Assembly: GCA_014871385.1 (NCBI GenBank) | Contig: CM026426.1 | Coordinates: 41,068,023 to 41,132,022 of the forward strand | Source: Ceratodon purpureus | Taxonomy: Eukaryota > Streptophyta > Bryopsida > Pseudoditrichales > Ditrichaceae | Reading direction: 5' to 3' | DNA length: 64,000 nucleotides | Part shown: one piece after another, positions 1 through 33,080 of the stretch | How positions within the stretch are numbered: position 1 is the stretch's first letter | Layout: every line of letters starts with the position of its first letter | The notes under the pieces: generated by a model | What the model saw: the letters and a program-made list of their open reading frames with translations, nothing else | Database searches by the model: none | What the model was told of the DNA's origin: nothing | Made by a program: the position numbers and the translations under genes

Positions 1-153
1 AAGCATAGCCGTAGGGTCAATGAGTAAATCATATATTTGAAGGCCGCACAAACGGATCGACCAAGTCGGCGGGCAGGCGATGGAAGGTGTTCTGTTGGTC
101 AGGAGGAGGAAAGAAGTGCAAGTTGTAGGCGAAAAAGTCCGCCTAACTCAATC

Positions 154-823
154 CTAGCAAACTTCAGTCCAGTCCACTCGTGCACGTCCAAACTTTCTCG
201 CAGCTTCAATTGCCCAGTGCACTTGCCCGGGCCCATACGCCTGCGCCATATACTCCGGTACAGATCCAAACTTGTGCAAGGGATAAACCAGAGGAAGGAT
301 ATCTGTAGCAATGTTAGGTATAACGCCGTCATCGTTCGGAAAGTTTAGATGACCCTGAAAAGGCCAAGGAATGTAGCACATACAGTTTGGTGTCCTCCTC
401 AATGACCTCGAGTCAACATCCACAAATAGCACCTGATCTAGTTTGCAGACGTTACGAGACTGTACCTTGGAGCAAACTTGACCTAACGTCTTATAACTCC
501 AGGGGAAATTCTCCCGGTCGATAAGGTCACTTCTGCTATACACGAAGGACAGCCTCTCCATTACACGGGCCGAAGAATATGTGTGAGTAAAGGCTTTAGT
601 TCTCCCAAGGGCATCTTCGACCACAGCCAACATGGAAATGCAAGAAAAGCATGTCGAAAAGCTTCTTCAAACCTGGGCGCTTCACTACATTCCGATGCGT
701 ATCCCATGGCAAAGCCTCTATCCTGGGATCCACATAGCAGAGAAGGCCATTGACGCATAGGACAATACATTTCTTGACATGATGGGGTGGACCGTGAAGG
801 CATTTGAAATAAAACAAGGAACC
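154..823 (-). pseudogene. FCP1-like (NIF) phosphatase unit A, broken
   Basis: This is the most downstream of three tandem FCP1-like units. The N-terminal half (about 596-817) holds KKCIVLCVNGLLCYVD and then VVKRPGLKKLFDML, which match the first strand and following helix of the NLI-interacting-factor (FCP1/SCP) phosphatase fold. The C-terminal half (154-633) holds LDQVLFVDVDSRSLRRTP, the position of the family's (L/I)(L/V)DD(S)P block. The halves lie in different frames, so about one frameshift sits near 620-640. The catalytic DxDx(T/V) is replaced by CVNG, so neither Asp of that motif is visible. A likely splice acceptor (CTTCAG, ending at 824) precedes the domain. Palindromes sit on both sides (65 and 906). 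Family membership rests on its resemblance to units B and C; activity is unlikely. Confidence 0.6.
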
Positions 824-1130
824 CTGAAGAATATGAAATGCAATCAGTGAAGGAAATCAAGGAATAGGACGAAGTATATGAAAGAAATGGACTATATTTA
901 AAGTCGTCGGCGACCCGCCGACAAATCGATGCATTGAAGAAACCTCAAAGGTAAATGTGCAGCAAGGGAAATCTCATGCATGGATCTACAAAAAGAAGTA
1001 CCGAACTGCAGCATTGGAAACAAATGTGTGGTGCAGGGAAGTTCAGAAAGGGAACAGTCTTAGCGTATTAAACTAAAGAGTGTAGAGTATCATATGTCAT
1101 TTTTAAAACAAGTGGCGCCTGGTATAGGCT

Positions 1131-2232
1131 CTAATCAGTCGGCTGCCCGTCGACGATGGAACTACCAGGGGCCTCCGGAGGACAAGGTAAATTAACAAAC
1201 CAAGATCCAGGATTACCCGGGACGTCAAACCCGCATGCATGAGAAGGAATAACCTCCCTATACTTCTGGTATTCGCGAGATTCTGGAAAAAGACGTGGCT
1301 TCCCCACGCTAGAATTCTTCCTACAATACTCCTGGACATCCAATCCAGACTGCTTAAGGCCTGCAAGGAATGGTGTAACTACCCTAGTTAAATAGGGATT
1401 GGGGGTGGATTGAGGTTCTTTGCACTCTGCAGAGTCCCAGAAAAAAGAATTAGGATGGACAACGCTAAATGGATGATAAAGTACATTCCTATAAGGCCGG
1501 TCGTCAACCAGTAGGGTATTCTAGACAGTGGCACCTGATGGAGCCAGTAGCCTAGTGTCGCAGAAAAGTCTATCCAGACGCTTCAACAAGTACTCCCGTT
1601 TTCCATTCGAATTATTTCTTGTTGAGATATCACACCAGTATCCTGGAAGGCGTCTGTAATTGCTCCTGAGCAAAGGATGAATGGCTAACAGCTTCTGGAA
1701 GTGACGATCGAGATTCTTTTCAGAAACCGTGGACCAAAAGACTACCTCGAAATTCGCCGTGCAGAACTCTAGAAATGAAAGAAGTCCTGGTCTAGCCCGG
1801 ATATGAATTTTTGTCTTCAGGTTATCACCGATATACCCGTGGTGCTCCGCGATGAGCAATCCCTTAATGTCAAGGACAAGGTAGTATCGTTGGAGAGGTA
1901 CCTCAATATTACGCGCACTAATCTCAGTGCTGACATTGACGGAATCATCGAGCGGAGAACCAGTGCGCGGGATCGCAACGTTGGTCTCGACGAACGAGGT
2001 GGAAGCCATAGCACACCGGCTGAAGCTATGTGCAGCAGACAGCGTCGGCGGCCCGCCGACAAGATAGTCGTACTCGTCCTCGCCATCACTTTCGTTCTCG
2101 GCTTCCGCTCCCGGAGACTCTTCTCTGTGAGCATCACCATCAGGAGATGTTGGGTACTGCTCCAAGAGCGTACTAAAAAGGGAAGGTCCCTGGTGCACTT
2201 CAATTTCAGCGTCATCCTCCAGTGACTCCTGA
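1131..2232 (-). pseudogene. FCP1-like (NIF) phosphatase unit B, one amber stop
   Basis: A nearly continuous FCP1-like domain. An acidic N-terminal region (DGEDEYDY around 2070) leads to YYLVLDIKGLLIAEHH (about 1840-1880), then RPGLLSFLEFC and FEVVFWSTVSEKNLDR, the classic strand-helix-strand of NIF phosphatases. After a single in-frame TAG at 1521-1523 the same frame gives NTLLVDDRPYRN, the second Asp-rich motif. The first catalytic Asp is present, but the second of DxD is Lys (DIKG); plant relatives often carry Asn there. A TTGTTCAG acceptor at about 2233 suggests an upstream exon. The frame ends SSIVDGQPTD, made partly by the palindrome at 1138; another palindrome at 2044 is read through. 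It is probably a protein-binding or weak phosphatase relative acting on nuclear proteins, by family analogy only. Confidence 0.72.
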
Positions 2233-2485
2233 ACAATGAAGGACAAATTCCAAGTAAACATGGGTGATCAATCGCGTGCTCACAATTCATACTTGCTCTA
2301 GTGTACAATAGGAGATACAATAAGACACCTACGACAGAATACATTGTCTCGACACTGAGTTTCGTTCTCATATATTTAAAAGGAGGAAAACTTTATTTAC
2401 TGTATAAGTCTAAATACATGAAGATCCCATCGGCAGGCAGCCGACTGAATCATGTGCATGTTCTCAAAAACAGTTTCTACTTCTC

Positions 2486-3286
2486 CTATGTCCTCTTTCG
2501 TTTAGGGCAATGAATGTGTGGAGAGAAGAGACTATTAGCCTTATCCCCCGAAAGCAGACAATCGTGACCAAATTCGGAGTGTTTCTGGTAGTACTCGGGC
2601 ACGGGGAGTTTGGATTCTTTCAAACTTGTAAGCCAAGGAATCAATTCTCCCACCAGGTAATTTGTCTTATTTTCCGACTCCTTCGACTCTAAGGTATATG
2701 GTGTAGGGTGCACAGCGTTCCAAGGAGTGTTTGCGACATTCTAATAAGGGGAGTCATCAACCAAGAGAGTGTTAATTGAAGACGCCCCCGTCCCCTTCAG
2801 CCCGTCATCGAGGTCGAAGAGGGTCTGGAGTCTCTTCAAATAAAACTCCCTACTAGCCTTATGTACGCAAGTCTCGTAGAAACTCTGGTCGAACTTGTAG
2901 CGCACTTCGTCATCTAGACGAGGACAGCGCTACTGCAACACTGTCCACAGAATCTCGAACCTCTTTTCCTGAACGCAGCTCCAGAAGACCACCTCGAAAT
3001 TGTCCAGGCAGAACTCTAGGAACTTCTCTAAAGTCGGTCTAAGTTTAGTATTCCACCTAGTGCCCTGCTTCGTCTGGACTAATAGCAGGCCGTTAATATC
3101 CAGAACCAGAAAATACTTCAGCACTGGATGGTGTACCTGAGTACCAGCCTGTTCCAGGGCTATGTGAAGTGAATTCAGAGGTGGAGGTCCCTGCTCCAGA
3201 ACTGCACTAAGTCTGTCTTCGCGAAGTTTTCCATGGACTTCCTTCACCGCGGACTCTGGAGTGACAGAAAACGAAGTTGAAGACAA
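2486..3286 (-). pseudogene. FCP1-like (NIF) phosphatase unit C, two amber stops
   Basis: First of the three tandem units in transcription order. The frame gives YFLVLDINGLLLVQ (about 3080-3120), RPTLEKFLEFCLDNF, EVVFWSCVQEKRFEI and NTLLVDDSPY (about 2742-2775): all core blocks of the NIF fold in the usual order and spacing. Two in-frame stops, both TAG, lie at 2930-2932 and 2741-2743; the frame is otherwise unbroken for 800 bases. The motif is DIN rather than DxD, the variant common in plant FCP1-like proteins. Palindromes flank the unit at 2429 and 3307. The C-terminal PHIHCPKRKRT is basic and could be a nuclear signal. It lies downstream of, and codirectional with, the ParB-like gene. Confidence 0.74.
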
Positions 3287-3487
3287 ACGTGACGGTTAGG
3301 ATGACGGTCGGCGGACAGCCGACTTGCAAGCAACACTATTTGGAGAAAGGGAGAGCGTACAACTTGGCATTTACCGAAAATTTATTCATATTTGGCAGTA
3401 CAAACATCTAACACAATCCTAGCGCCGGAACACTACACTAATTTATCAATGCAGGCATTTAAAAGATGGACTGGGCCACCGCCTGAT

Positions 3488-4567
3488 TTACTGACTTCCG
3501 TCTTTGTGCTTCTTCGACCTAGGCTCCCGTTTGGATGCCCGCACACGTGACAGAACGTCCTCTGGAGCGTCCACATTTTTGGGACTCATGTGCTGTTCCC
3601 CAGATGTGCCCTTCTTGGAGGAAGTCTTCTTCGAAGTAGCCTTCCGTTTGCCCTTCCCAGAGGACTCCTCCCCTTCCTGAACCCCTGAGGAATCACGGGA
3701 TAAGTTACCCACAAGAGAGGAATCCTGAGCAGTACCATCCATCTTACTTCTCTTCAATGCTCGTGTCTTGCCCAGAGGGTTCTCATCTGGGACTCTCATC
3801 CGAGTTGCGCCCTTCACACCCTGAGTGACGAATGCGATTGACTTCCCTGTCAACTTGGACTTGGCAGAGGGGTTAGATGAGGTTTGCTCGTCTGCCGTTG
3901 GCTGCCCGCCGACGGCAGCAGGAGGAAGAGGCCCTTCAATGCTCACTGCAGGCTCCTGGGTTGGTTTATGGACACGGACAACCACTTCATTGTCAGGCCT
4001 CGATGCTAGAGGAACCTCCATCTTCTTTGGAGGCCCCGCCTGGTCTAGGTCACGTTCTGGCTCGGCGAGAGGAGTCTCCTGCTCATGTAATATAGGAGAA
4101 TTAATACCGAAGCCGAGGAAGTCAGTTCCTTCCTTCCCTGTAACTTGCGACAGCGGTGGGTTCACATAACGAGGATTTGATTCTTCCATTGGTACCACGT
4201 CGGGTTCTGGTTCATAGTCTAAGTCCTCCTTGTATTTCTCAGCTACCTCTGCATCTCCAGTTGGAATGCGAGCCTCAGCTTGGTCGTCCTTGTTTCTTGG
4301 CTGTTCCTCAGCATCTCCAGTTGGAAGGTGAGCTTCAACTTCAACGTCGGGGTCGGGTACATCTGGTGGGTCCTCGTCGACATCATCGTCGGAGTCCTGA
4401 AAATTCTGTGAGGGAACCCCCGCACTCTTTCCTGAACCCATACATCCACCCTTTCCGACCAAATGGGCCTCCTCCGCATTCACACCCAAGTCGGCAGGCG
4501 TGAGAGTGCCAGTCCTGCCTCTAGCAGAGGCGGGGACAGACGGCCCGGCCCAAGACTAAGTGGTCTA
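3488..4567 (-). CDS. Charged, low-complexity C-terminal tail with nuclear signals
   Basis: An open frame of about 334 codons, extending upstream through two TAG codons to about 4615. It is rich in Asp, Glu, Pro, Ser and Lys: DSDDDVDEDPPDVPDPDVEV near the start, two similar blocks with LPTGDAEEQPRNKDDQAE and IPTGDAEVAEKYKEDL, then basic clusters KGKRKATSKKTSSKKG and SKREPRSKKHKDG at the end. These look like bipartite nuclear-localisation signals on a disordered tail. The internal palindrome at 3897 is translated as VGGQPTAD. It could be a separate gene, but its frame continues upstream into the end of the methyltransferase-like exon, which favours one protein. Confidence 0.5.
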
Positions 4568-4611
4568 AACTGGAGCTTCGACGGGCACGTTATAAACGCC
4601 CGGAATGAACG

Positions 4612-6149
4612 TCATATTCCGAACCCGACAGTGGCTTCGTATCTCTCTTCCTCGGTACGCACGATCTCAATTACAGTCAAATGGTTTTTCTACAGAAGAA
4701 CAAGACGAAACGGTTAAGGAAATCTTGTACCCAAGAAACACGAAGGATGCAATGAGCGTCGGCTGCCCGCCGACGATCGGTGAGCAAAAAGCGAAGGCAC
4801 CAGAAGAGACAGCAGTGACTTACCAGAGCAAGGGCCGTGACGTTCCCCCCTCCCCAGCAATTGATCACCTGAACGTCCTCTAACGGCATCGCTTTCTCCA
4901 GAAGAGATTGGAGGAAAGAGTAACTAGCGTGGCAGTCTCCATTAGACCAATCCTCCCCAAGACCATCTTCTCCTTCGTCCACATAGGAAGGAAGCGGACG
5001 TTTCCAACCAATGAAGTCCGAGAAGGTATTCCATGCATCCCCGGGCGTTGTTTTTGGATACATAACGGACACATGAACCTTGGGTCTAGAGTCAATGAGA
5101 GAACTCCTTTCAAACCCGTCGGAACTATCAGGGAAGTATTGCATAGTATGCACCGTCCACGAACTACCCGTCAGCCTTGACACGCCTTGAAGAATGTAAT
5201 TCGACTCAACATCGAGTAGCCACAAGGAAGGGGTGGCAAGCTTATTCACCTTAATTGTATCTACCTCCCCATCCACCTGAATGACCTCCTCCTCCACCTC
5301 ACGGTGAATCCTCTTTGCGACAGTTAGAACATGTTGTCGCAAGTTCGGCATCTCCTTTCCTGCTGGATCGTAGCCAAAGACTACGAACATCTCATACAAC
5401 GCCTTGTCGAAGGAGAACGCTCCGCGAACGTCAAGAGTTGTGCACACTTCACCTAGGTCCTGTGCAATCCTGGCATCGAACTGTACAGACGACTGCGAAG
5501 ACTGGTCCACATCCGACTTCCAGTATTTCTGCACAATGTCTTTGAAGAATTTGGGTGTTGGCCCGTGCGACGGCGTGAGCGGATGATTTCGTCCCTTAAG
5601 CCACTCCTTCCCCTCAGGACTATCTTCCAAGTCAGCCCGAATATTACTAATCATCGTATCATTGAACCCCTTCTCGACTTGAAGGGAATTCCAGTCATCC
5701 ATGCTCCACTCAATATGCTTCCCAGTCCCTGGCTTCCCAAGTGCGAAGCCCCTGTAAATGCACATAAGCTCATTTCGGACAACATACTCGTACTTCACAT
5801 GAAAACACCAATTCTTCAATGATATTCCATCCCATTGAACCACCTCTTTCCCAGTGACCTTGACGTACACTTTAAGGTCCAGAATTTCCTTGGCCAGCCT
5901 CTTGCATTCGCGGTCCCGAAGACCGATCACGTACTGCATGTCGTTGAGTGTTATGTCCCGGCGGGCTGGCTTTAGGGGAAATCCTGGTTTTAAACTGTCC
6001 TCCGAGATGATCCTCCCCTCCTCCCAAGCATTGAAGACCAGTTGCCACTCGTTATATGTTTCGTCAGGCACGAAGACTAAGGGCAGCTTGAAGGTTTGGG
6101 ACATAGGGGACTTTCCGAGAATCGGACTGAGGTACTCCTTGCAGAACTC
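4612..6149 (-). CDS. Exons 3-4: methyltransferase-like region
   Basis: A 442-codon open exon with no stop, starting EFCKEYLSPILGKSP and using codons evenly. The first 250 residues are unrecognised: QWDGISLKNWCFHVKYEYV, then MDDWNSLQVEKGF, then TPKFFKDIVQKYW. Near the end, ALEKAMPLEDVQ-type sequence leads to INCWGGGNVTALAL, and across intron 3 to KNHLTVIEIVRTEEE. That matches the shape of methyltransferase motif I (FxGxG, helix, then a strand ending in an acidic residue) placed C-terminally, as in beta-class N4/N6 DNA methylases. I see no clear DPPY/F motif; the equivalent stretch may be VHVSVMYPKTTPGD, so catalysis is doubtful. The partner ParB-like domain in the same protein supports a DNA-modifying or DNA-binding role. 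The call is tentative. Confidence 0.5.
4690..4823 (-). other. Intron 3 of the ParB-like gene, 134 bases, palindrome inside
   Basis: Donor GTAAGTCAC, acceptor TTCTTCTGTAG, phase 0. It has the same length as intron 2, with the palindrome (4758-4774) at the same offset of 49-65 bases from the donor. Outside the palindrome the two introns are only weakly similar. Confidence 0.75.
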
Positions 6150-6283
6150 CTGCAAGGAAGAAGAAAATGAAATCGATAAATAAATCCCACTTCTACAATA
6201 AGGAAAACCACCTAAACTTCGGCGGGCCGTCGACGAGTTTCAACTACATGTAAACAACAAGAAAAGAGGAAGATGTGAATTAC
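6150..6283 (-). other. Intron 2 of the ParB-like gene, 134 bases, palindrome inside
   Basis: Donor GTAATTCAC, acceptor CTTCCTTGCAG, phase 0 (…FSAWK joins EFCKEY…). The palindrome variant at 6218-6234 lies 49-65 bases after the donor. The acceptor side is T-rich. Confidence 0.78.
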
Positions 6284-7682
6284 CTTCCATGCGCTGAAGT
6301 CATCCTTCTTGTCGATCCTATCCCTCTCGATCCATTTGGCGCGCATCTTCTCCAGCTGGGACCTAAAACTTACTTCGGCAACTTTATCCTTCACCTCGAT
6401 GTTTAATGCGTTAGAGACCTTAATGAGGGTATCCTTGTCATCAGAATATACAGGAATGATATCGTGGTTAAGGTAATACTGCCGCATAGGAGAGTCCAAT
6501 GGTTCCTTCTCTCCCAGTTCTCGACAAGCCTCAAACGTGTGCTGGCCCCCAATTATGTACCAGTGGATGAGCTCATCTTCATACCAAGGTACCAGCTTAG
6601 TTTGGCCGTCATCCATTGTATGTGAATACCTGATATTTAGGGCTGGCATAGGTCTAAGAAGTCCTTCCAAGCCTTTAAGCTTAATCTCGCCCGTCACTGG
6701 ATCCTTTACTCTGGGGTCACCACTCATAGGAAGGCAGTACAGCTCGGGCTTCTTCCCGATTGCTCCAAGTCCTTTGTAGAAAAGACTTATCTGATCATGC
6801 CTCTTCCTGAATATCGCTCTGTACTTAAATTGGTCGGGAGCTATGTGTATCCTGTCATATGGAATCTGACAAGGAAGGGCACGTTGCCCGTTGGGGAAGC
6901 AGTGCCCAAGTCCCTCCTCCAACGTCTGGTACATAGCAAGGACGTCGGTGTCCTTTGTTTTGGAAGTGAGATTGTTTGCGAGCATGAGAGCTTCCGCGAC
7001 GGTCTGCTTTTTCTCTTCCTTCGTCCCACCTCTCTTCTGTCTCCCACCCTCGCCCTCAGCAGCCGCTGCCTTTCCCTTCTACTTTCTCGATGACTCCCCT
7101 GTCGCCTATGTCTCTCCGGTCTCGGAAGTGACTGTACCAGTTCCTGCTTCTACGGCGGACTTGCGGCCGCCTCTTTTCTTTGGTGAAGGCTTAACCAAGC
7201 TCTTCGTCTTCTCTTCCATCACTTTGTCCCCGAGCGTATCAATCACGTCGAGTATGTCGTCACTTTTTAAGGTAGTGTTCTCGCCCCTGCCCCAAGGAGC
7301 CGCTTCCTGTACTTCCTTGGAGCACAAGCTGTCCATGCACTTCTTAGCCGGAATTACAACCGCGAAGCAGTCCACAGGAGTCCCCTCCGCCACAGGAATC
7401 GATGCAAACACCAAGCACACGTTGTCCTTATCCTGGCATTCCCTGACTCCAATAATCTTGAATCTTGGTCCACCCGCCATTTGCTTCTGGCCTATTTTGG
7501 TCACGAAGCCCAGTGACGTGGGAGTGTCACGCTAGGTGATGCCCCACTCCGTTATCTTTGAATCAGCGAGGAATGTCACCCTCGGTTTCAAGCCCCGTGC
7601 AACTATTCTTCCTTCAGGATCAACAACCTTGTCACAGAGCCACCGTAACCCACTTGGTTTTGCGGTGGGGTCGACAATCGCC
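6284..7682 (-). CDS. Exon 2: N-terminal region and ParB/sulfiredoxin-like domain
   Basis: The exon starts AIVDPTAKPSGLRWL and carries an N-terminal region of unknown type (LKPRVTFLADSKI, then MAGGPRFKIIGVRECQDKD). A basic linker follows (KPSPKKRGGRKSA and GGRQKRGGTKEEKKQ). Then comes the domain of interest: GLEGLLRPMPALNIRY, WYIIGGQHTFEACREL (about 6510-6560), and IPVYSDDKDTLIKVSNALN. The GGQHTFEA block sits where ParB proteins have G-x-R-R-x-x-A and sulfiredoxins have GGCHR-x-x-A, followed by a valine-rich strand and a helix, as in that fold. The same block (INGQHSIVAS) recurs at 18.2 kb in element 2. The fold assignment is inference; a structure prediction could overturn it. Confidence 0.62.
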
Positions 7683-8106
7683 CTGCATAATCAGAATCAC
7701 AAGATTAGACCTTCAGATTCTCACTCCATCGGCGGACAGCCGACGGGGGGATGGACACTCCCTCCCCATCGGCGAACAGCCGACAAGGAGGATGGACACT
7801 CCCTCCCCATCGGCGGACAGCCGACGAGGGGGATAAACCCAAATCAGAAACCCTACATCGGCGGACAGCCGACGGGGGGGAAAACCCATGTGAGAAAATA
7901 GAAAATTGAATGACACAAGAAGGGATGGCGTCGGCGGACAGCCAACGGGGGGGACAAACCCATGCGAGAAAATACAAAACATGAAACACAAAAGAAGGGG
8001 TGGCGTCGGCGGACAGCCGTCGGGAGGGACAAACCCAAGCGAGAAAACGAAAACATGAAGGACTCAAGAAGGGGAGCGTCGGCGGATAGCCAACTGGACA
8101 ACTTAC
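7683..8106 (-). other. Intron 1 of the ParB-like gene, filled by the palindrome array
   Basis: The donor GTAAGT directly follows a 20-base first exon, and the acceptor is ATTATGCAG. At 424 bases it is the longest intron of the gene; almost all of it is the tandem array of seven palindromes. Phase is kept on joining. Confidence 0.6.
7728..8094. repeat. Tandem array of seven GTCGGC palindromes
   Basis: Palindromes start at 7728, 7768, 7809, 7857, 7930, 8005 and 8078, with steps of 40, 41, 48, 73, 75 and 73 bases. Spacers are not unique: the first two share GGATGGACACTCCCTCCCC, and the last three share an A-rich stretch with ACCCATG(T/C)GAGAAAA. The centre is mostly GGACA, always in the same orientation. 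This looks like local unit amplification inside intron 1, followed upstream by isolated half-sites (AGCCGACGC, five times in 8175-8280). Confidence 0.9.
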
Positions 8107-8126
8107 CCACTCTCGGAGGCAGCCAT

Positions 8127-9159
8127 GTCGTCGGCGGATGGCCTTTCACCGTCGGCGGATGATCCAAGGAACAGCAGCCGACGCGCGCTGGTGAAGGAGC
8201 CGACGCGTGCTGGTGAAGGAGCCGACGCCCTCAACCCTAGCAGCCGACGCAGGAAAACCTAGCAGCCGACGCGACCTCTGCGGAGCGCTGAGAAGAGGAC
8301 AAAAGAGAGCTGAAAAAGAGAAGGCTGGAAATGAGGAGGAAATGTCGAGGGTGGCGGGTGTATACCCTGCAAACCCCCACCTCCCGAGACTGAATCGTCA
8401 CGCCCGATGGGTCATGACGTATGGCTATGTACATACCATCCATGGATGGATGGTCATCCCTAACATCCGTCCTATCACGCCACGTAGGATGATGATGGGA
8501 CGTGTTTTGACTTTTTTTCAACCGGTCACCAAGTCATGATGGCGTGGGCATGTGATGTGACAGCTGCTCCAATCGCCACGTTCAAATTCGTAATAATGAA
8601 CTAACATTGTTCTGTGATGGCGGGGGTATCTCGCCGCCATGATGGGATCTTGATCTGTTCAAGGCGCGCAAAATTGAATTCGATTCTAGCACCAATTTGT
8701 ACTCCTGGGAATTCATAACTAACCCCCCGTCAGATGCGCATACTTCATTCTATTTCTGTCATTGCACTTTCGATTCCCTCTGAGAGTGCTCCTGACGCAC
8801 ACGTTTCCTGAGAGGATCGATATTATTCTTGCATGTGCTTAACTGTCCAGCACCTTCTGTTGCCGTTTCTGTTGTCTTCGTTTATCGTTTCTGATTGGAC
8901 AATTGAGAGGAGTCTCTGATTGGACAGGTTAGAGGACACCATACTGCTTTTCACCTAAGGTCCCCTGCCATTTCTGTCGGCGGACGTGTCCGTCTTCGTC
9001 GGCGGATACTATTTCTGTGCACACTCCCAGTTGTACGATTCGCGTCGGGTGCGCGCCGAGTCGTCTTCTTTGTCAGCGGATACAGTTTTCTCCGTCGGCG
9101 GGGACACTTTCTGTCGACCCTATCGGCGGTCCGCCGACGAGGTCTTCTTCTTCTATCCA
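8127..9159. promoter_or_regulatory. Divergent spacer between the ParB-like and DUF7869-like genes
   Basis: About 1 kb with no supported gene. Next to the ParB-like start (8130-8280) it holds a run of half-palindromes of the form AGCCGACGC. It then has the inverted CATCCATGGATGGATGG near 8438 and, at 8889-8936, two copies of TCTGATTGGACA followed by related sequence. The ATTGG cores are inverted CCAAT boxes facing the DUF7869-like gene. More half-sites and one full palindrome (9122) lie just before the plus-strand ATG. GCCGAC is also the core of the plant DRE/CRT element, so a regulatory role is possible. No clear TATA box was seen. Confidence 0.4.
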
Positions 9160-12982: not shown

Positions 12983-13084
12983 TACCCGAAGAGGTTGTGA
13001 TTGCTGCCATGGCAAACTTCGAATCGCATGGAATCTCGATGACCTGGAATGACGAGGAGGAAGACTAGTTGGCTGCCCGCCGAC

Positions 13085-14571: not shown

Positions 14572-14639
14572 AACGACAAAATATTGGACAATATGCGATA
14601 TCTTCTACAGTATGCGACCTTCTTCTACAGTATCCCGTT

Positions 14640-15425: not shown

Positions 15426-15427
15426 GT

Positions 15428-17821: not shown

Positions 17822-18007
17822 TTTATCCGTGATAAACAGCCACAGTTTATCCGGGAGATACGAAGAATGAAAGCTAGCAATATCATTGACTCAATGATAT
17901 GTGGAGGCTGTGCAGAATTCTTACCTTATACTTGTTCATGTAGAACACTCCTTTATTCTTCCTCGAACTGTCCTCATCACGCAAGTCGATTGGTCAATCA
18001 TATGCTA

Positions 18008-18580: not shown

Positions 18581-18599
18581 GGACCTGCCAAGATCAGTA

Positions 18600-19397: not shown

Positions 19398-20015
19398 TTA
19401 TCATGACTCGAGGATGACCATAAAAGGACTACAAGGTCATGTTATTACGAATCCTTCTTCCTACTCTTTTTTTTTTGAATATTGCCGGTGTTCATACCAC
19501 TCCCGATCCGCATCTCCCGATCCGCATCCCCCAAATGTTCGCTTTATCTTTGTAGCCTTGGTCCGTTTTGCAATTAAGGCTAGGTACTTATTACGAAATA
19601 AAGTTATTATGTTGAACTCAGGTACTTATTTATGTGTTTTCTAGCATCTTTATCAGATAGACTTACATTTTATACCCTTGAACCGAGGTACATATCGTCG
19701 TATCGAGGATAACTCCAGGGCTTCAGAGATCAGCTTGCCCAATGTTCTCCCGAGTATCGTCGTGTCGAGGATAAGTATATTGTATTTTCCAGAGACTTTG
19801 AAATCCGATGGTTTTGTTTGCCTATGTACTTATTAGGTGATTTTGTTATTATGCTAAACCTAGGTTATTATTTACTAATATTTTTGCATCTTCATCCGTT
19901 TTTGGACATTTCAGACCCAACAACCGAGGTACTTATCGTCGTATCGAGGATAACTCCAGGGCTTCAGAGATCATCTCGCCCAATGCTCTCCCAAGTATCG
20001 TCGTGTCGACGATAA
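19398..20015. repeat. Second palindrome family, left cluster, in a tandem duplication
   Basis: Copies start at 19398, 19693, 19755, 19934 and 19996. The ideal form is TATCGTCG-TGT-CGACGATA, perfect at 19996-20014; the others have one to three arm mismatches. A unit of about 240 bases is duplicated: the copies at 19693 and 19755 repeat as 19934 and 19996, with the shared GATAACTCCAGGGCTTCAGA between them. It lies just upstream of the element 2 minus-strand genes, where element 1 has its array. Confidence 0.8.
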
Positions 20016-21640: not shown

Positions 21641-24600
21641 TAATTTAATTGTGGACTTTACACAATTTATACAATTATGTTTTACTTTTTTTACAAACAT
21701 ATGAAACGTGGATATTTTTGGTTTGTTCTTTCTGCTCCTTTTTCATTTTTGATTGAAATTTTAAAAAAAATTATTCAAAGTAAAAGTTATGCTTATACAG
21801 TAATTTGTTTTTATAAAAAAAATCACGTACATGTTGAATTTAATTTGAAATAATATAGATTAGATCAATTGATACAAATCTAGATCAATTGGTACAATCT
21901 AGATCAATTGATACAAATCCAAATTAATGGATACAAACCTAGGTTGATAAATGAGCATGTATTTTTTTTCTCTTTTAAATATTTGTAATGTAACTAGAGA
22001 TATCTGATAAATGAATAATCTTATGATTACATATGGTTGTATACAAGCATATGATGAGGGGAGCAAGACAATTCACATTTAATCCACATAAATACAAGAT
22101 ATATTAATAAACATACATTGATAAGTTTTTAATTTAACTAGTTCTTAAACAATTTAACATGATTTTAACAACAAGGTTTATCAAAAACAAAACATTGAAT
22201 ATAAGGCCAATAATTTGCACAATAAGTTGTGACATTAAGAATCCAAATAAATAAACTATAGGAAATGGAACTTACTGACTTTCCTATCAAAACCATGGAT
22301 TCATTTGTAACGACACTTAAAATGAACATAAAAGTGCACAAAAATTTGAAAATTATACACTAACAACATAAGTATTATTACATATTATTGATTTATTATG
22401 TTCACACCCTACAACACGTCAATTGTTTTCTTTAAATGGTGTGCTAAATTCCACAATAATTGTATGTTACCTCAATTAGTAATTTCATTTAATACAAATC
22501 CTAAGCACATATAATTTTTTAATCCGTGTAATCTATCATTGATCGGTTGACATTGAATTGAATGAATAATTATTTATTAGATTAGACCCATTAATAATAC
22601 ACTAGAAATTAAAAACTCTAAGAGTGGGTTGCTTATATTTCTCGGAAATCTACTGAAGTCAGTTTTTATGATTGTATTAATATTATATCCCATATCTAAG
22701 TCATTATGGATAAAACTACTAATTATGGATTGCGTATTATTTTTTTAGGGGGCTGCCCTCAAAGTAGCAGGGCAATAATAATGTTTTTTTTGGGATATTT
22801 TTCAATTGATATATGCTCCAAAAACAGATTTTTGGCCTAAAATTCATTGTTTAGATTTTGATGGAGTGACAAATTCCACATTTGTGCATTTTTTTATTTT
22901 TATTCTTTTGGTGGATTTTTTTAAACATTCATCATTTTATAATTAATACGTATCCTAATTTCTATTTGAATTTACAATGATAAAATGTTATCTACTACAA
23001 ACACATTGTGTCGATGGAGGAGCTCATAACTAATTATAGACTTCAGAAAGTCCACAATTGCTTAAATATAAATTTAATCCTCAACATACAAATCATTAAA
23101 ATAATTTTCACAATTGTCATGTATTCACATATAGTAATTTCTCAGGATGGGCAGTAGGGAAAAACATAGGATTTACGTGCAATAAAATGTAGGGTCTTGT
23201 ATATTCATTCGTGGTAAAATTTATATTTATTTAGATCTACTAAGATGCTCTAGGATTGTAAAACATGATAATAATATGTAATAGAGCATTTGAATAAATA
23301 GAGGATAATTAAGTGAGTGTACATATAAAATAGCATTTCGAAAAAATGATAGTTGCAACAATTATTAAGTACTTTGTACTTGAATTGTTCTAGATTATCC
23401 AACATGGATGAAAATATGTTAAGTATTGTCCAAATTTGGTGGATGAAAATAGAGTCCCCTCGATCAACTAGGTTTAGAATTATAATAGTGGAAGTAAGAA
23501 GTAGTATGAAGAGAAATAAGAAGTATGAGGAGAAATAAGAACAAGTATGAGGAGAATTTAGATGAATTATAATGCGAGATAAAAACTTGGGCCATACTCA
23601 TCTGTCTAAACTTATGGACTACTCCTTGTCTTCTCCAATCACATAATTTAGAGTACTTCATTCGGATTACATCTTGGCACAATTATGGCAAAATAAACCA
23701 CTTGAATGTCATGTTTTAAATCACTCTTTAGGTACGAGAAAAAACATATGTTGAATTCGTAAATTATGGTGCCGTGAAAACCAAATTTTGGCCTAAAAGT
23801 CATTCTTTTAATTTTGATCGACTCACAAATTTCACATTTGGGTATCTTTGATTTGTTTTTTCTTGTGAATTTTTAAAAACATTCATTATTTATTGTATGT
23901 ATCTTATTTCCTATTTGAAATTTTGATGATTTCAGGTTATTTACTACAACAGCATTGTGATGATGGAGGAGCTCATAACTAATCATAGACTTCTAAAAGT
24001 CTGCAATTGCCAAAATATAGATTTAATCCTCAACATTCAAATAATTTTAAAATTATCACAATTGTCATCTATATTACAAATGAGCATGGATGTCTCACAC
24101 GACGGTTCCGCGGTGGAATCCATGGAGGAAACAAACCGAGTTGCGGTCAATGTGCTCAAGGGCATGAGTCCCACTAGTGTATTTACATATTCTCATTTCA
24201 TTTATTAGATATATGATGTATTGGATGATGTCAATTAAATAAATAAATAATTTTAATTATGTTGTGGTAATTTAATACGCATATCAAACTCAGATCCCAT
24301 AAACAAATACTAATTATACAAATATATTGTCAATATTTTTTTTAAAAAAAAAAACCTACTAGATTGCTCATATTTATTTTCCCCTCTATTCAAAAAAGAT
24401 GCATACAAAATTAAGTAACACGGATATCTCAATCATTTGTAATGTTAATAAATAATAATGATATTATTGTTATCCAATTTTATCTAAATTAAATTAGTTA
24501 ATAATTCACAGCTTTGTAATTTTTTTTTCAGCTTAGCCATATCAAAATAGTAGAAAGAAAAATTTCACAATATTTATTATCTTAGATTCGTAATCATTCT

Positions 24601-24715
24601 TTTTTCTAGTTATCAGTTATATTTAGATTATTCTGTGTCAATCATTCTCCACAAAGAACACTCAGTTCTGAAAGAACCATGACTTACAATATTTTTTCTC
24701 AAAGAACTAAATTAT
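21641..24715. other. AT-rich non-coding block with local repeats
   Basis: Strongly AT-rich with no convincing frame. It holds a short tandem repeat at about 21858-21945 (units like TAGATCAATTGATACAAATC) and a diverged direct duplication: roughly 22840-23110 and 23790-24070 share GATGGAGGAGCTCATAACTA and flanking sequence in the same order. The duplicate units are about 950 bases apart, which suggests old repeats of unknown family. Confidence 0.5.
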
Positions 24716-24717
24716 CT

Positions 24718-24845
24718 AGGCCCTAAAACCCTAACCCCTAAACCCTATACCCAATACTCTAAACTGTAAACCCTTAATCCTAATCCTATACCCTATTCCC
24801 TAGTGCAAGTGTTTAAAACACTATACCGTAAACCCTAAATCCTCT
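24718..24845 (-). repeat. Degenerate telomere-like tract (CCCTAAA type)
   Basis: A run of CCCTAAA, CCCTAACCC, CCCTATACCC and similar variants over about 125 bases. Orientation is opposite to the tract at 15.43 kb. It has decayed far more than a functional telomere would. Confidence 0.6.
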
Positions 24846-25560
24846 AATTTTATATTGACATAAACCAAAAACTTTAAACTCTGCACCTACCACTAGTTGA
24901 CTAACAATATTAAGAAAATAGAAGTGCCCGTTGGCCTTTCTTAAAAGTGACAGCCACTTGTAGGGAAGGGCGATAACTATGAGATTCCACACCGTTCTAG
25001 CGATAAAGCTGTGGAAAAGGCTTTTGAAAATCCATTTGCTGATAATATCAAGAAAGCATATTGGAAAGTTTGATGTTTTCGTTAGATATTTGAATCTTCA
25101 CAACTTCTCGACCATTCTGTTTTCCGCCCGCTGAATCTCACTCTCGTACTCGTCTCCCTCGTGCACTTCGACGTCGCATTTTTCCTGTGCTTGAGTTCAA
25201 CTTTGCCTCGGCTCAAATTGTCGGTCCGTTGCGACCTCCATTCTTAGTCCACTATGTTTGGTTTGTGATGATGCGCTTCTGTTATCTTTGTGGAGTAGGT
25301 GATGAGCTTGTGTGATCTTGCTTAGATTGTGTTGGTATAGTTCATATCCGGAGGTTTTGATTTTGGGACGCTGAGATTGACAGCGTTCTACTGCTCCTCT
25401 TCTTCCTCCATTTCGCCTCTCTAGTTGCTGCTCTGTCTAAGACATGTCCACTCTCTAGTTGCTTCTCTATCTTTGACATGTCTGTGGGATCCGAGAAACT
25501 CAGAATAAACGAGAAGGACCCCATCCGGAGTTAGGATTCAATTAAATTTTCATTTTTTTT
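24846..25560. other. Unassigned sequence, no gene seen
   Basis: Mixed composition. A T/C-rich stretch at 25.1-25.2 kb looks like a promoter or leader, but no frame follows. Short near-repeats of CTCTAGTTGCT lie at 25420-25465. Confidence 0.3.
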
Positions 25561-28500
25561 TGGTTATTTAGGTAAAAACTGGCTAGACACTAGCCGCATT
25601 AGGCGTTAACACAAACCGGATGCTCCAGAAACCTTAAAACAATTAACGCAGGAAGTATTCTCAGAACCTTGATTCCGAAACTCGGAAGAGGATACTCAGA
25701 ACGGGTTGACGATCCGAGAACTGACCGTTACTGTAACCGCGTTGAAGATCCGAAGCGACGCGGAAGTCATCATGACTCGGATAATGTCGAGCCCGGTACG
25801 GTGGCGGCTGCAATTACGCGCCGCTGCAGCGTTTATGGTGCCCTGGGTATATAAGCGGGAGTGTTAGGGTTTGGAGTTCCTTTTTGCGGACTGGGAGTAG
25901 AGAGTGAAGGAGCGGTGAGGTGTTTTTGTCTTTTCCGATTCATTGGCAGTTGGATTGCCGGGTTTCTTGCTGTCGGATCGTTAAGGGAGAGAAGTGAGGA
26001 GTAGCAATGTCGCACGTTCAGTGCAGAGTTCTTAGTCCCGCCACTCCGGTGAAAGAGTCGAAGATGAACGAGTTGATTGACGATCTCACCCGGATGAGGT
26101 GCGAGGGTTTGTTGTCACGGCCGTGGTTGCTGAAGGATGAGGCGATGGTGACGGAGATCCTGGAGGGACCGGACAATAGGTGGAACAATACGATCCGGGG
26201 CAAGCCCACACTATGGAGTGCGGAACCGTGGGCGGAAGTTTATGACTTCAAGCAGAACGGACTCCTTTGGGCAACCCGGACGGATAAGTACGTGCAGGAT
26301 AGGTTCCACGGAAAGATCCATAAGAACAACGGGTACGTGATAGACGCCTGCAAGGATAGGAGACAAAGACAGGTCCTAGCTTTCCTCGTTCCGATCTCGT
26401 ATCCGTTGAAACCGGAACAGGTCACCATCACGGTCGGGAACACCATCTTTGGAGCGTACACGGGGGAGCGTCCGGTGAATTGGGCCGCGCTCATAGCGGA
26501 AACCGTGCAGAAGATGGTGCCCTCGATCGGAAAGAAGCCGACCCCAATCACCCCTTTTCTCTTCCACCTCTACCAGTCCATTAGCTTGCTGATGGATAAG
26601 GAGGAGGAGAGTTATTTGGTTGCGAAGAACATACTCTGCTTTCAGGAGGTTCCGCCCGGGTTTGATGTCGAACCTCACGGCGAAACCTCGGATACAGCGT
26701 TCACGGAAGGGAAAGATGATACGGTGATCGTTCCGAATCCCAGCGGTACGAAGACCCATTCCAAGTCGCGATCGGAACTCGCTACATCGCAGCACGCGGA
26801 GCCCTCCACGGCCCGGGGAGATGCGGAACGGAAGGAGGTCAGTTCCGAGCGAGGATTTCCGGATGACCCGTTCCGGGCACTCAGGGAAGAAACTCACCGG
26901 GTGCAGGCCTCTTACTATTGGATTGAGACGTTGTTTCCGGAGAGTCTGCACGTCGCTCGGGGGCTGTTTACCGGAAGAGGTGAACCGAGAGGTGGAGCTT
27001 TTGAAGGACGCCCCGAAGCTTCAGAGTGAGAAGAAGCAGTTGGATTTTCAACTGCAGGAGCTTACCTCGGAACTGGCGACGAAGAGCGAGGAGATCCGGA
27101 AATTCCATGCTCAGCAGGAGGAGACTCTGGGTGAGCTCCGGAAGTTGGTAGGAGTTCCTGGTGATATAGTCAACAAGGCCCGGTTGTTCGACGAGAATGT
27201 GCTGCAGCCGGCGGATTTGGAGAATAAGCAGAGGATCATCACGATCCTTTCCAAATGCGAGCACTCGATGAACCAGATCCTGAAGCAGGTTCAGAAGTTG
27301 CTCAATCCGGGAGTCGGAAGTCCCAGTGTCGGAACCAGATTTCCCAGATCTCCCTCTCGGACTGTGGGAGGGGAATCTCGCGGTGTAGGGTTCAGGACCC
27401 CAATGGAGCGCAACCTCCGGCTTGAGGAGCAGATGGCGGTTGACTTGGATATCTTCAAACCGGCTCGGACGATCGCGGACCTGATCTGGGAAGTTCAGGC
27501 CAAGGAGGCGTCACCTGGAGCCTGTGCGGCTCAGCAAGGCTGCGCAATTCCCACCGGACAGGCAGAGGTGATGGGGACTACAGTCACTGTCAGGCGATCC
27601 GAGGAGCGGACGGTTACGGAAGAGGTAACCCGGCCAGTGCAGCCGGTTGTCTCCCCCGCACTAGGTGATTATTTTGTCTCCCCCGCACTAGGTGTCTCCC
27701 CCGTCGGTGATTATTTCGGTTCACCAAGGGGAGGTAGCCGGAGCGGAATGGAGAAGGTCCATTTCACCTACCGGACGTACCCGAGTGACTCAGGAGGGGG
27801 CACTCACCCCTTCACCCACAGCCCGGACCGGGATTGTGACTCCTACACCAACCGGGACGCCCATGGTGGACTCCCCCGCGCACAGTTCCGGTGCTCGGAT
27901 GGTTTTGTGGAAGAGGAAGGAACCGGCGGAGAAAAGGCCCATTACGATTTTTGGGTCTGACTCGGATACTCACGCGAGCTCTCCGGTTGGGACAGCCGGA
28001 ACTGAGACTCGAACCCCGACAATTGGAACCCCTCCCTCGCGGATGTTGCCCAAGTCTTCCAAGTCTCCGAAGACCCGGGTCGTTACCCGGCTTGCCTTGG
28101 AGACCAAGTCGAAGGAGTCAAAGGAGGAACGGAGTGCTAGTCGTCAGGCGGAGCGGGCCGCAAAGGCAGGAGGATCCGAGCCCCGGGTGACTCGGTCGAA
28201 GGAGAAGGACCAAGGGCAGGAGAGCCACAAGAAGACGAAGATGGGATAGATTCCTCACGCTGGAACTGGTAGTCACTTTCCGGATTTATAGGAGTAGATT
28301 TCGGATCGGGAGATCCGGTTTAGTCGTAAAGTAGGATTCTAGGTAGATAATTAGGAATTAGGGTTTTTGATTGAACTTCCGGCGCTGCCACTTTTGTGGA
28401 AGCCCCTGCTTACTTAAACGGGGCAGGCGATGCAGTCCGGGCCTTCGTTTTGCATGTTTTCTCCCTATATTCCTTATCAGTAAAGTATTCGGGTTTTGCA

Positions 28501-29180
28501 AGTACTGTGCGTGGTTTCCAGTTAAGTGTGAATAATCCGAGAGGATGTTGAGAGTTCCGCTGTAGCTCGGATAGGAAGGTGATGGGAGTTGTGACGAGGC
28601 TCGAACTGGAATGGTACTGGGATTGAGCGGAAAGATTTAGCGGATTGTCATAGGAGTGAAGCCTTACTGTTCCATCCCCAACCCAACCTCACGCGGAATA
28701 GCCGTCGCTAGGGTCGAAGGGGATCAAGGGGTACTTGATCGGGCTCCTTGAACTTCTGAAGAGGTTCCGCACTCTGTGAGAGGGGAATTCGGAACGTGGC
28801 ACGGGTTGCCTAGATATAATCGGATCTTGGTTCTCCCAAATCCGGATCGGTTTGTCGTTGTAGTCTCACGGATCGGGAGTGGGCGCCTGTGTGACCTGCT
28901 GACCAGAGTGTTCTAAGTCAGTTGTGAGGTAGTATTCTTTCCGAGACGTTGGGGTTGTGGACGAAATACTTGACTGTAACCGAGAAGCGAGTCGAAGAGA
29001 TACGTTCCGGAAACACTATCCGAGCAGTGACAAGGCTTGGAAAGATTGTGAGTAAATACTTGGTGAAGCACTATTGAATCCCTGGACGATACTCGGAACC
29101 CAGTGACAATACGGGAGTTTACGCTCATTTTGAGTGCTATCCGGATGTTAGTTGCGTTTCCGTGTTCCGACAATGTCAAC
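25560..29180 (+). mobile_element. Non-autonomous LTR-retrotransposon kin with accessory ORF (fossil)
   Basis: A 3.6-kb unit with its own base composition (rich in CCGGA words). It has a TATA box at 25848 (TATATAAG), a leader, and coding sequence at 26007-28249. It lacks protease, reverse transcriptase and integrase, so it would have been non-autonomous. Ends are approximate; I could not define LTRs or a target duplication. It is part of the DNA that splits the element 2 palindrome cluster. About two breaks are apparent in the coding part, otherwise well preserved, so it is likely younger than the Gypsy elements. Confidence 0.45.
26007..28249 (+). CDS. Accessory ORF: plant transposon-type domain, coiled coil, basic tail (fossil)
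   Basis: Starts MSHVQCRVLSPATPVKESK. The first 220 residues form a globular region (RWNNTIRGKPTLWSAEP, VPISYPLKPEQVTITVGN, TPFLFHLYQSISLLMDKEEE) whose shape resembles the 'putative plant transposon protein' type carried by plant Gypsy relatives. Next comes a coiled coil (EVELLKDAPKLQSEKKQLDF, ELTSELATKSEEIRKF) at about 27000-27150. A long Ser/Thr/Pro-rich region follows, then a basic C-terminus (RVTRSKEKDQGQ). Related ORFs lie at about 48.4-49.1 kb, 53.3-53.6 kb and, inverted, 58.7-59.9 kb. It may act as a Gag-like or chromatin-tethering protein, but function is unknown. It spans more than one frame. Confidence 0.45.
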
Positions 29181-29886
29181 TCTTTAATTGTTGCTATCGA
29201 GTCCTACATGTCAACTCTCTGGTTGAATTTTATGTAGTTTTTGGGAATTGTTCCTACTCCCACGGCCGTATTATCGAGTCCACACCACACGCAAAGCCAT
29301 TGATTCATTGAGTCAGTGATAAGGATTTCCGATGTGTTTATTGTAGTCCATGTCTTATTGTCGTGTCGATGATATGATCCGGTCATCCTGATTATGGAAT
29401 CATATACTGCTGCAATTTATTGTCAGGACTCAGATAGATGATAGCCTTAATAATTGATTGAATTCTACACTGAAACGGGTTATCGTCAACTCGAGGATAC
29501 GACATTCTATTAAATTAAAAATATCCAAATAAATTACTAGTATTGAACTTAGCGCAATCTAACAATATTGATAATGTACTAAAATGTATTTCATCCCCTA
29601 ATTCGTTATTAATGTTGAACTAGATTATTACCTTCCAATATGCTAGCAAATAGTAGTTGCTTATCATCATGTTGATGATAATAAATGTGTTAGCTCAAAT
29701 CAATTAGAGGTTCCCTATCAAGGAGACGATGATATGGATACTGTTTCATTTGCCAAGTCATTTCTTACCATCCATGATGATAGTATCCTCTTCAATTATT
29801 AATATTATTTTTTTATTTTTTTTGTATTGGAGTATCGTTGTGTGAGGGATAACAGATGGGTCTAACTTCTGTGTTTATTTACGAGA
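29181..29886. repeat. Second palindrome family, right cluster
   Basis: Copies start at 29355 (TTATTGTCG-TGT-CGATGATA), 29481, 29661 (arms TTATCATCA and TGATGATAA around TGT, a perfect 9-base inverted repeat) and 29833 (degenerate). Partial copies lie near 29190 and 29270. They sit directly upstream of the plus-strand DUF7869-like copy 2 and mirror the left cluster at 19.4-20.0 kb. No gene is seen. Confidence 0.72.
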
Positions 29887-32739
29887 ATGGATAATCATGA
29901 GGTTGTCAAATTTGCCATTCTTGCTTCAACAATACTCGTTGGTATTGGTTTATGTGATGGTATTCCACGCGCAAAGTGGAACACAAAGTACGTAACTCTA
30001 TGGAACGATGCAGATGTAGATGTTGCTAATGGAGTTTGTCAGAATGTCGATCCAAAGCTTGTTATCGACATGGATGGTAAACCTCTTGGTGACGATCGAG
30101 TTGCTGTACAGATAGCTGAGTCTCTTTGTGAAGCGCAAGTTCCGTCTGGCTAGGTTTGGTCGATTGTTTCTTGGTACATTAGACACGTGTTTCTGAATGG
30201 GTTTACATTGTATGACCACAATCAGACTTACATGTACAACACTGCCATGAACGCTCAAAATCAACGAGTTTGAAATGGGGTTTGCTCATACAAAAGTACA
30301 CGTCAGTGGATTGAGCCTGATGTCCCCCCCAAGAAGGAGTCCCTCTTCTCAGTAGAGGCCATTATCCAAGTCTCAACGAAAATGTGTTGCGAGAGAAACT
30401 GTGTACAGCCGTTTTCGTGTACCCAAACTCACGCAATCTTGGCTCAGCTGCATGTGAATGATAGGGTTTATGCTCGCAAGAATTGTCTTCTAGAAGTGCA
30501 TAGAAAAATTCACAAAGATGCTATTGGCAAGAAGTGGATTACCTTGAAAGGTCAAGAAGTGTGTCCCAAGGCATAGTGGACCATTCATGGAATTGGAAAA
30601 GCAACTTTCTATAGATATGTAGAGTTGGCCAAAGCAGGTATTCAAAGAGAAGGGCATGGTAATTTGGGATCCAAGAAACCTCCTCCACACACCTTGCAAG
30701 CTGCAGCCACGCTGAGGACTCTCATTGTACCTCATGCAGACAAAATGCCCCATAAGACGAGGACATTGGAAACTGGAGAAAAAGTCCCCGCCATGATTCT
30801 TCCTTTAACATTCTGTTGGAGTGACCAATTGCTAATAATCAATGAGGCCAATTCAATGTTAAATCTGGAGCCAATTTCTTCGAGTGATTTAAGCAACATA
30901 CGACGATTATCTTTTCTAGAATTTGCATCCAAGGCTCGCTGAGACACCTTTGCTCGGTGTGGCCAGTGCTATACATATAAGCAACTTAGAAGTGCTTGCA
31001 CACTGCTCTCAGACGTTCAGAATAAATGGTCCAATATTTTGAATACCCACATAGCTAGGCAAAGGGCGCATCGGGAACTTTACTATGGAAATAGATATAT
31101 TTCCGAAGAATACCCTGAGAAGATGTTGTGCATTATTCATGACAAGATGGATCACTCAAAAACCACTTCCCTACACTTTTCTCACAAGACAAAAGCAATA
31201 GACTCCTTCATGAAATTACCCATTGCTATAAATGGTTTGATTGCTCATGGGTAGGGCAATGTTCAATATGTGCACTACGGCCTTGGCATTTTCCCCACTG
31301 ACTTTAATTATACCATAGGGTCCATTGCAAAGTTGTTGCGAGATCTGGAAGCCCCTCCCAAAAATTCATCTCGCCATTTATTTTCTACTGAGAGGGACGA
31401 GTCCACATTGACTTTGGCGCTTCTGAATGATCCAAAATCTTGCTTAGACTCTCTTCTTCCACCTCCACCAAAGCCGCTTCCGGCTAACCCTCTTCCACCA
31501 ATTTTGACGTCGCAGTTGGATAATGCCTCCGGTGACAACAAGAACCAATGGGTTTTCGGATTTTGTTCTTTGTTGGTATACAAAGGGATTTTCCGAGAAA
31601 TATATATCAATTTTCTTATTGTTGGACACACTCACGAAGACATTGATGCTTTTTTCGGTCGTTGGAGCACTATGTTGAAAACAAAGAACTATCCAACACT
31701 TCGAAGGCTCATGAAATCTTTCATGGAATGTGAAACACTTCTGGTTATTCCTCATCTCATCGAGGTGGTCTCTGATTTTAAAACATTCCTACATAAATAT
31801 ATTGGTAGAGGTGGTGATTTTTTGGAAGGTCATTCTATGTCACAACAGTTCAAGTTTTATATGGATTCTATAGGATGGCCTTTGATAGAGTATAAAAATT
31901 TGTGCACATACAAAATTTGGTTGCCCGAGGATGGTAGAAGAATTCGCTTGTGGTCTGAGACAAAGGACGGGCGATCCAAAGTGCTAAGTGGAAGTCCAAC
32001 TCTTCTTGCTCCTCATCTAATGAAATCCCTTGACGAGGTTAAAAAAGGCTTGAACGGTTTCATTGCCCTTTGGAATAGAATGGCCAACAATGACCATTTT
32101 GGAGAATTCAGGCGGAAGAATGCGACAATTAACGACTATTGAAAATCTGTTAGACTTCTTTTGGATGCACCTCTTTAAATACGCGAGGCATTACTAGACT
32201 GATTTTGGCCGGCTTCAAGGATCATTAATGATAAGGCAGATTGAAGACATAGAGATGGCATCATTTATGAAGAGGATGCTGAGGACACATGTTTTGTTGG
32301 ACGGAAGCGTGATCGTCCACGAGCTTCGTTACGAGTTAATCGTGATACTTTTGCAGGTAAGTTTTTAGTAGTGCGCCCTGATGATGATGATCCTAAGCCA
32401 TTTGGGATTGCAAGAGCCATTACAAATCCTAATCTAGATCCACAGCACATGCACATGACAAATATTCAATATTGGACACCAACCTTACATCTCCATATTG
32501 ATATGGAAACTTATGATGGTTGGGAAACAAAAGAAGGAAATGTCTGGTGTGAAGATCGGGACATAGCTCCAACCTGCTCAAGCACAGATTGTATCATGAT
32601 GGCTTGGAAACCACGTTTCAGAGAGGGAACTTCAGACTCTAAAGTTGCAATCCCAAAGCCGCAAATTGACATCATCAAAGCATTGGTGATGGCTTTCATG
32701 TCTGATTCAAACAACACTAAATCTACATCGCAGGGCTAA
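29887..32739 (+). pseudogene. DUF7869-like protein gene, copy 2 (element 2)
   Basis: A single frame runs the whole length without an intron. In order: YVTLWNDADVDVANG, KMCCERNCVQPFSC (Cys cluster, about 30385), WTIHGIGKATFYRYVELAKA, HTLQAAATLRTLIVPHADKM, ARCGQCYTYKQL, MLCIIHDKMDHSKT (about 31120-31160), QLDNASGDNKNQWVFGFCS (31510-31570), FLIVGHTHEDIDAFF (31612-31656), then a C-terminal FLVVRPDDDDPKPFGIARAI and QYWTPTLHLH block matching copy 1. About nine in-frame stops interrupt it (30151, 30271, 30574, 30940, 31252, 32140 and three more before 32250): three TAG, five TGA and one TAA. It is fully colinear with copy 1 and lacks its intron. Confidence 0.75.
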
Positions 32740-33080
32740 ATAGCTTGTAGTTTCTGTCCGTAGGTTATTTGTTTTGGAGCATGCGTAGAATGCACTTGCA
32801 TGATAAGGCAATGATATCTTTTAGAAATTTTTTATACTATTACTATGTTCCTATGATGAGTATTTAAATAAAAAGTTTCAATTGTCCTTCTTTAAAATTT
32901 TTGACATGTGGATATTTGGATTTTATATTTATTAATAGAAATAGAAGTCTTACTTTACTGAAGAGTCTCAATTTAATGAAACCTTATTCCTGTCTAAATA
33001 TAGCACAGATTTAAAACAAGACTTCTTAATTGTCTCAATTTAACAAATAAGGCCTTCCTTGTATTCACATGAAGTTTGTT
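32740..33080. other. AT-rich 3' flank, no gene seen
   Basis: An AATAAA-like stretch near 32870 may be a poly(A) signal of the preceding gene. Nothing else is recognised. Confidence 0.4.

Follow-up and report, generated by a model that had tools for sequence, protein, structure and literature searches.

What are two similar sets of genes doing side by side in a moss chromosome: do they belong to one kind of mobile element whose genes travel together, to a duplicated block of DNA, or to a chance arrangement? The question is raised by a stretch of 64 kilobases (kb) of Ceratodon purpureus (GenBank assembly GCA_014871385.1, contig CM026426.1, positions 41,068,023 to 41,132,022), called the window in what follows. 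In this window we noted two adjacent units in the same orientation, E1 (~0.1-15.5 kb) and E2 (~16.9-32.7 kb). Both have FCP1-like sequence on the minus strand, a minus-strand gene for a protein with a ParB-type GQH motif (the GQH gene), a set of palindromes, and a DUF7869 gene on the plus strand, in that order, and E2 alone has about 9 kb of other DNA between its palindromes and its DUF7869 gene. A sequence-only reading of this DNA had described side-by-side copies with the same gene order and strands, and the profile matches and motif positions that we found in both units bear this out. We believe, with modest confidence, that E1 and E2 are probably relics, long diverged from each other, of a single type of giant class II (cut-and-paste) transposon, with the DUF7869 protein as its candidate transposase and accessory genes on the opposite strand.

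The DUF7869 genes score 127.9 bits in E1 and 125.2 bits in E2 (139.5 bits with TAG read through) against a curated cut-off of 26 bits for the family (PF25273), so the earlier label of DUF7869-like is confirmed by plus-strand profile matches in both units. Compared with each other, the two genes have four homologous blocks with local scores of 215, 496, 112, and 97, where the means of shuffled sequences are near 30, and no block had its score equalled by any of 300 shuffles. Between E1 and E2 the core has 39% identity, and the acidic motifs HDKMD, QLDN, and GHTHEDID are conserved in this order in both. These motifs resemble the acidic core of RNase H-like DD(E/D) proteins, which suggests that the DUF7869 protein may be the transposase. 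It may be similar to the Sola-type transposases. A literature search for DUF7869 found no paper that names it and thus no described function, and a PDB sequence search with the protein returned nothing relevant.

FCP1/NIF is a common eukaryotic family (PF03031, cut-off 21.8 bits), and its minus-strand Pfam matches in both units agree with the FCP1-like label given earlier. The E1 matches score 27.5 bits with the standard code and 36.7 and 46.4 bits with TAG read through, while the E2 match scores 21.8 bits, exactly the cut-off. Unit B of E1 was matched at 1521-2267 with the standard code (E 2.9e-6) and at 1068-2267 with TAG read through (E 4.2e-9), and among the matches listed by tblastn, E1 unit A matched E2 at 17571-17137 with an E-value of 1e-4. 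E1 thus has two Pfam-supported units and may have three in total; Pfam gave no match to the possible third unit at 154-666. The second catalytic aspartate of these FCP1-like proteins appears to be replaced (LVLDINGLL, LVLDIKGLL).

E1 also has its own palindrome, the 17-nucleotide (17-nt) sequence GTCGGCNNNNNGCCGAC, which has 30 matches in the window at two or fewer mismatches where 0.83 would be expected from shuffling. All but one of these matches are in E1, where they span the whole element well beyond the tandem cluster between the divergent genes, and the 48.5 kb outside E1 contain just the thirtieth, which has two mismatches and lies at 26526, within a gag-like frame of the DNA that interrupts E2. 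Only 4 of the 29 palindrome centres in E1 are in coding blocks, although these blocks, which we drew ourselves from the reading-frame results, make up 71% of the element (P 3e-10); counting the tandem cluster once leaves 4 of 23 (P 2e-7). The palindromes of E2 are located as in E1, upstream of the GQH gene, and are unrelated to them in sequence. They are copies similar to TATCGTCGTRTCGAGGATA and, because the four sites sit within a duplication, they count as two independent sites; this set has no chance expectation attached, and the inverted-repeat listing that gave it also gives many single ones. The sequence-only reading had described a palindrome cluster in both units, and what stands of this is that each has palindromes between its minus-strand and plus-strand genes; the sets differ in sequence, and that of E1 is not confined to a cluster. 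When any sequence with 7-nt arms is counted, perfect palindromes show no concentration in the elements, the first 16 kb having 20 of the 93. Palindromes inside E1 reading frames, at 2044, 3897, 9475, and 9832, add peptides such as VGGQPT and VGCPPT. Palindromic repeats are known to insert peptides into the proteins of some bacteria.

Both E1 and E2 are broken, and given the stops and frame changes in their genes, they are relics. In E1 the frame changes are in the DUF7869 gene (near 10395, 12055, and 12495), in the third FCP1-like unit, and in the tail of the GQH gene (Table 1). The change at 12055 is in a conserved stretch with no space for an intron, and the remaining E1 frame changes could hide unrecognised introns. 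In E2, stops and frame changes are found in the GQH gene and the DUF7869 gene alike. The best blastn match between E1 and E2 is 39 nt at 79% identity (E 0.005), over the GHTHEDID motif, and three more matches have E-values of 2.7. With a DUF7869 protein identity of 39% and so short a best DNA match, no recent segmental duplication can account for the two units. Linked travel of an old element is supported as a better fit to these sequences than a recent duplication, because the gene order has been kept at 39% protein identity and with almost no DNA similarity.

The idea of one mobile element whose genes travel together therefore survives, but its description as new does not, since the basic plan is already published, at least in the portion of the source that we draw on. 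In Sola1-1_Ec32, a giant DNA transposon of 21.5 kb from Ectocarpus, the transposase is accompanied by a ParB-like/methyltransferase gene on the other strand, and the giant Ectocarpus families have nested insertions and broken transposase genes (PMC12477816). Sola1-1_Ec32 resembles E1 and E2 in its large size and in having its ParB-like gene and its transposase on different strands. In contrast, the product of the Sola1-1_Ec32 gene is predicted to contain an N4/N6 methyltransferase domain, which is not supported for the GQH genes of E1 and E2, and the FCP1-like partners and element-specific palindromes are features of E1 and E2 that were not seen there: the main text of PMC12477816 mentions neither "fcp1" nor "palindrom". 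Among the papers listed by a literature search on accessory phosphatases in giant transposons, none was on FCP1, judging by title and start of abstract.

How the parts might work together is suggested by two other comparisons. Proteins of the Ectocarpus type have been proposed to bind and modify their own element, with no site named in the passages concerned (PMC12477816). In Arabidopsis, the anti-silencing VANC proteins of VANDAL transposons often target tandem repeats, which vary among related elements, and VANC21 is located at non-coding regions (PMC5735166, as far as the sections consulted go). An element-coded factor with non-coding, tandem, element-specific targets would match the palindrome pattern of E1 and E2, and the parallel is a functional one. 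By analogy, the GQH protein, encoded with the FCP1-like proteins opposite the DUF7869 gene, would be a candidate reader that binds the palindromes of its own element; these mostly non-coding sites, in tandem between the divergent genes, would serve for self-recognition. Such binding might keep the chromatin of the element open or mark it for the transposase, and the FCP1-like proteins might act on the transcription machinery. What can be read directly from the sequence is the shared gene order, the relatedness of the DUF7869 and FCP1 genes, and the confinement of the E1 palindrome to E1, whereas mobility, DNA binding, and the parts played by the palindromes and FCP1 are inferred. Taken to its conclusion, this would be a self-recognising transposon in which a lineage-specific palindromic tag, spread through non-coding DNA and even introns and proteins, is read by the element's own ParB-type protein, tags and reader co-diverge, and only the element's own copies are marked or shielded; we regard this full version as improbable. 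The transposon reading would supply a concrete binding-site hypothesis, with the 17-nt palindrome of E1 as the target of the E1 GQH protein, which would make the published self-binding idea directly testable. If the transposon reading is true, DUF7869, a eukaryotic domain of unknown function, would be tied to a mobile element, and an FCP1-like partner would be added to the published ParB-carrying algal transposons.

Several results weigh against a giant transposon with a ParB-type accessory protein, and some of them involve the GQH genes. The core of phage ParB-methyltransferase proteins (AGHGR) aligns with the GQH core of E1 and E2. With a profile built from seven of these phage proteins (L001-L007; an eighth, L008, was left out), a 20-column core, scored at 127,882 positions in the six frames of the window, ranked the E2 motif 1 and the E1 motif 3, both at places preselected by the sequence-only reading before scoring. 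With 36 columns, however, the E2 motif in register ranked 277 and the E1 motif was outside the first 2,000, and as a control, when the phage profile was taken in 98 overlapping stretches of 20 columns, 11 of them had their top window match somewhere in the two minus-strand genes. The best hhalign alignment to this profile is on the GQH motif, with a probability of 1.1% (P 0.048). No ParB-type or methyltransferase match was found in Pfam, PDB, PHROGs, NCBIfam, or PADLOC. Because the core ranks high and the longer stretch and the profiles miss, "ParB-like" stands at the level of the core motif only. The other half of the earlier ParB/methyltransferase label is not supported: methyltransferase motif I ranks 67 of 127,906 in the window, DPPY was not found there, and Pfam has no match. 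A methyltransferase motif suspected by eye was dropped after this scoring.

Also on the negative side, the pairwise similarity of the two GQH genes is not significant. Their best piece, which holds the motif, was equalled by 13 of 300 shuffles and the other three pieces by 62, 52, and 99 of 300, and when 4,896 six-frame tiles were scanned, two chance regions came ahead of the E2 GQH region, which was third with BLOSUM62 and tied third with BLOSUM45. The N-terminal plus-strand frame of E1 matched the single E2 frame tried no better than chance (285 of 300 shuffles equally good). The AlphaFold models, made from two-sequence input, were unusable, with a mean predicted local distance difference test score (pLDDT) of 34.5 for the DUF7869 protein and 38.8 for the GQH protein. 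We found no convincing inverted repeats or target duplications at possible element ends, where the left end of E1 may fall outside the window; selection on genes alone would likewise leave palindromes depleted from coding DNA; and E1 and E2 adjoin, which makes an old tandem duplication possible. Searches for relatives confirmed none in viral contigs or in bacterial and archaeal genomes (seeded by short peptide patterns) and found none in phages, and among plasmids there was none for the GQH block and one unconvincing match (E 0.3) for the block that follows. These searches say little because the phage, viral, plasmid, and prokaryotic collections are not eukaryotic genomes.

If a stationary, non-mobile set of genes was once duplicated in tandem long ago and the two halves then diverged and decayed, this would explain why the copies are adjacent, in the same orientation, and lacking recognisable transposon ends. 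The wholly different palindrome families of the two halves and the breakage of the DUF7869 gene in both copies speak against it, as does the similar published arrangement, which belongs to a transposon (PMC12477816, in the part considered here), and we think this history rather unlikely. We give still less credence to the idea that the DUF7869 gene alone is the transposon and that the FCP1-like and GQH genes are chance neighbours or came from the host by a single capture that preceded a duplication. The weak support for the E2 GQH gene and the commonness of the FCP1/NIF family speak for it, but FCP1-like and GQH neighbours recur at the same place and on the same strand by both DUF7869 genes.

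A further alternative concerns the palindromes only and is compatible with the transposon reading. They may be an independent spreading repeat that can persist in non-coding DNA and in disordered parts of proteins and has no tie to the GQH protein, as fits their presence inside E1 reading frames and in the three recognised introns. Independent palindromic repeats are known in organelle and Rickettsia genomes. The near absence of GTCGGCNNNNNGCCGAC from the window outside E1 and the separate palindrome set that E2 carries at the matching relative place argue the other way, and we rate this possibility as a serious one that falls somewhat short of even. The coordinates on which the transposon reading is built are collected in Table 1.

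Table 1. Positions in the window of the features of E1 and E2.
Feature	Position	Strand	Remarks
E1 palindrome range	65..15482	.	29 of 30 GTCGGCNNNNNGCCGAC matches
E1 tentative third FCP1-like unit	157..786	-	VLCVNGLL-type stretch; tblastn with unit A E 1.7; frame change near 633
E1 FCP1/NIF-like unit B	1152..2267	-	one internal TAG; 38% identical to unit A, E 3e-32
E1 FCP1/NIF-like unit A	2484..3242	-	internal TAGs; Pfam NIF 2450-3295, E 4.4e-12 with TAG read through
E1 charged low-complexity reading frame past GQH blocks	3491..4624	-	frame changes near 4630
E1 GQH (ParB-motif) gene	4590..7690	-	blocks 7690-6284, 6149-4824, 4689-; motif GGQHTFEA at 6562
E1 inferred introns, GQH gene	6150-6283, 4690-4823	-	134 nt each, GT-AG
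E1 tandem palindrome cluster	7728..8094	.	7 copies, between divergent genes
E1 plus gene, N-terminal reading frame	9166..10401	+	4 internal TAG; no known domain
E1 DUF7869 gene	10379..12979	+	Pfam E 4.6e-37; with inferred intron (palindrome inside); blocks homologous to E2
E1 inferred intron, DUF7869 gene	10934-11058	+	125 nt, GT-AG; frame restored to match E2
E1 reading frame, no known domain	13774..14604	-	inside palindrome range; no Pfam match
E2 FCP1/NIF-like remnant	16930..17571	-	Pfam NIF 16930-17406, E 1.7e-4, at curated cut-off
E2 GQH gene remnant	17453..19152	-	changing frames; motif INGQHSIVAS at 18235
E2 palindromes	19580..20015	.	four TATCGTCGTRTCGAGGATA-like copies in two direct repeats ~80% alike
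Other DNA splitting E2	20100..29400	.	limits inferred; long frames 25998-28249 gag-like by eye
E2 DUF7869 gene remnant	30274..32739	+	blocks 30274-30939, 30943-32142, 32245-32739; E 3.2e-36, 1.3e-40 with TAG read through

Each of the three recognised E1 introns holds one palindrome. Under random placement of the non-coding palindromes this has a P of 0.077, so the coincidence is only a hint. Palindrome-linked intron gain is possible, because E2 has no insertion at the place of the third intron, that of the DUF7869 gene.

The stops within the E1 genes are unusual. In twelve gene blocks (1152-10933, 3,262 codons) we counted 14 TAG, 0 TAA, and 0 TGA in frame, where the TAG share expected from the codons present is 47-50% (P 2e-5 to 6e-5); a TAG-only count is favoured by the way in which blocks and frames were chosen, partly for few TAA and TGA. 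A stop-blind coding scan of E1 gave 10 TAG, 3 TAA, and 3 TGA, with the TAA and TGA at or past gene ends. All other scan segments together have 39 TAG to 41 other stops, a ratio that sets the block count apart (P 2e-4) but not the raw scan count (P 0.41). TAG stops are what CHG-type deamination of CAG would leave, yet CAG in E1 is at 0.94 of expectation, which is little loss. CAG deamination, decay, or the use of TAG as a sense codon may each explain the TAG-only stops. A genome-wide reading of TAG as glutamine is disfavoured, since the gag-like frames have 26 CAG, 3 CAA, and 0 TAG while nine E1 blocks have 51, 30, and 11, although the codons are few. No transfer RNA (tRNA) that might act as a suppressor was found in the window with bacterial-code settings, and an Rfam scan of the window had no match at gathering score.

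A few observations are minor. DUF8039-like repeats, an impression by eye in the E1 N-terminal plus-strand frame, were dropped as they had no Pfam support. The gag-like frames at 25998-28249 are long and overlapping (343 and 410 amino acids), and neither has a Pfam match. Beyond E2, a remnant of a hAT-type transposon lies at 35982-37998, with matches to DUF659 and the hAT dimerisation domain, and two inverted reverse-transcriptase stretches that are 67% alike, at 43107-44307 and 61107-62306, are probably from elements of the long terminal repeat (LTR) type. At 33492-34217 there is a repeat with units of ~126 nt that are 74-79% alike.

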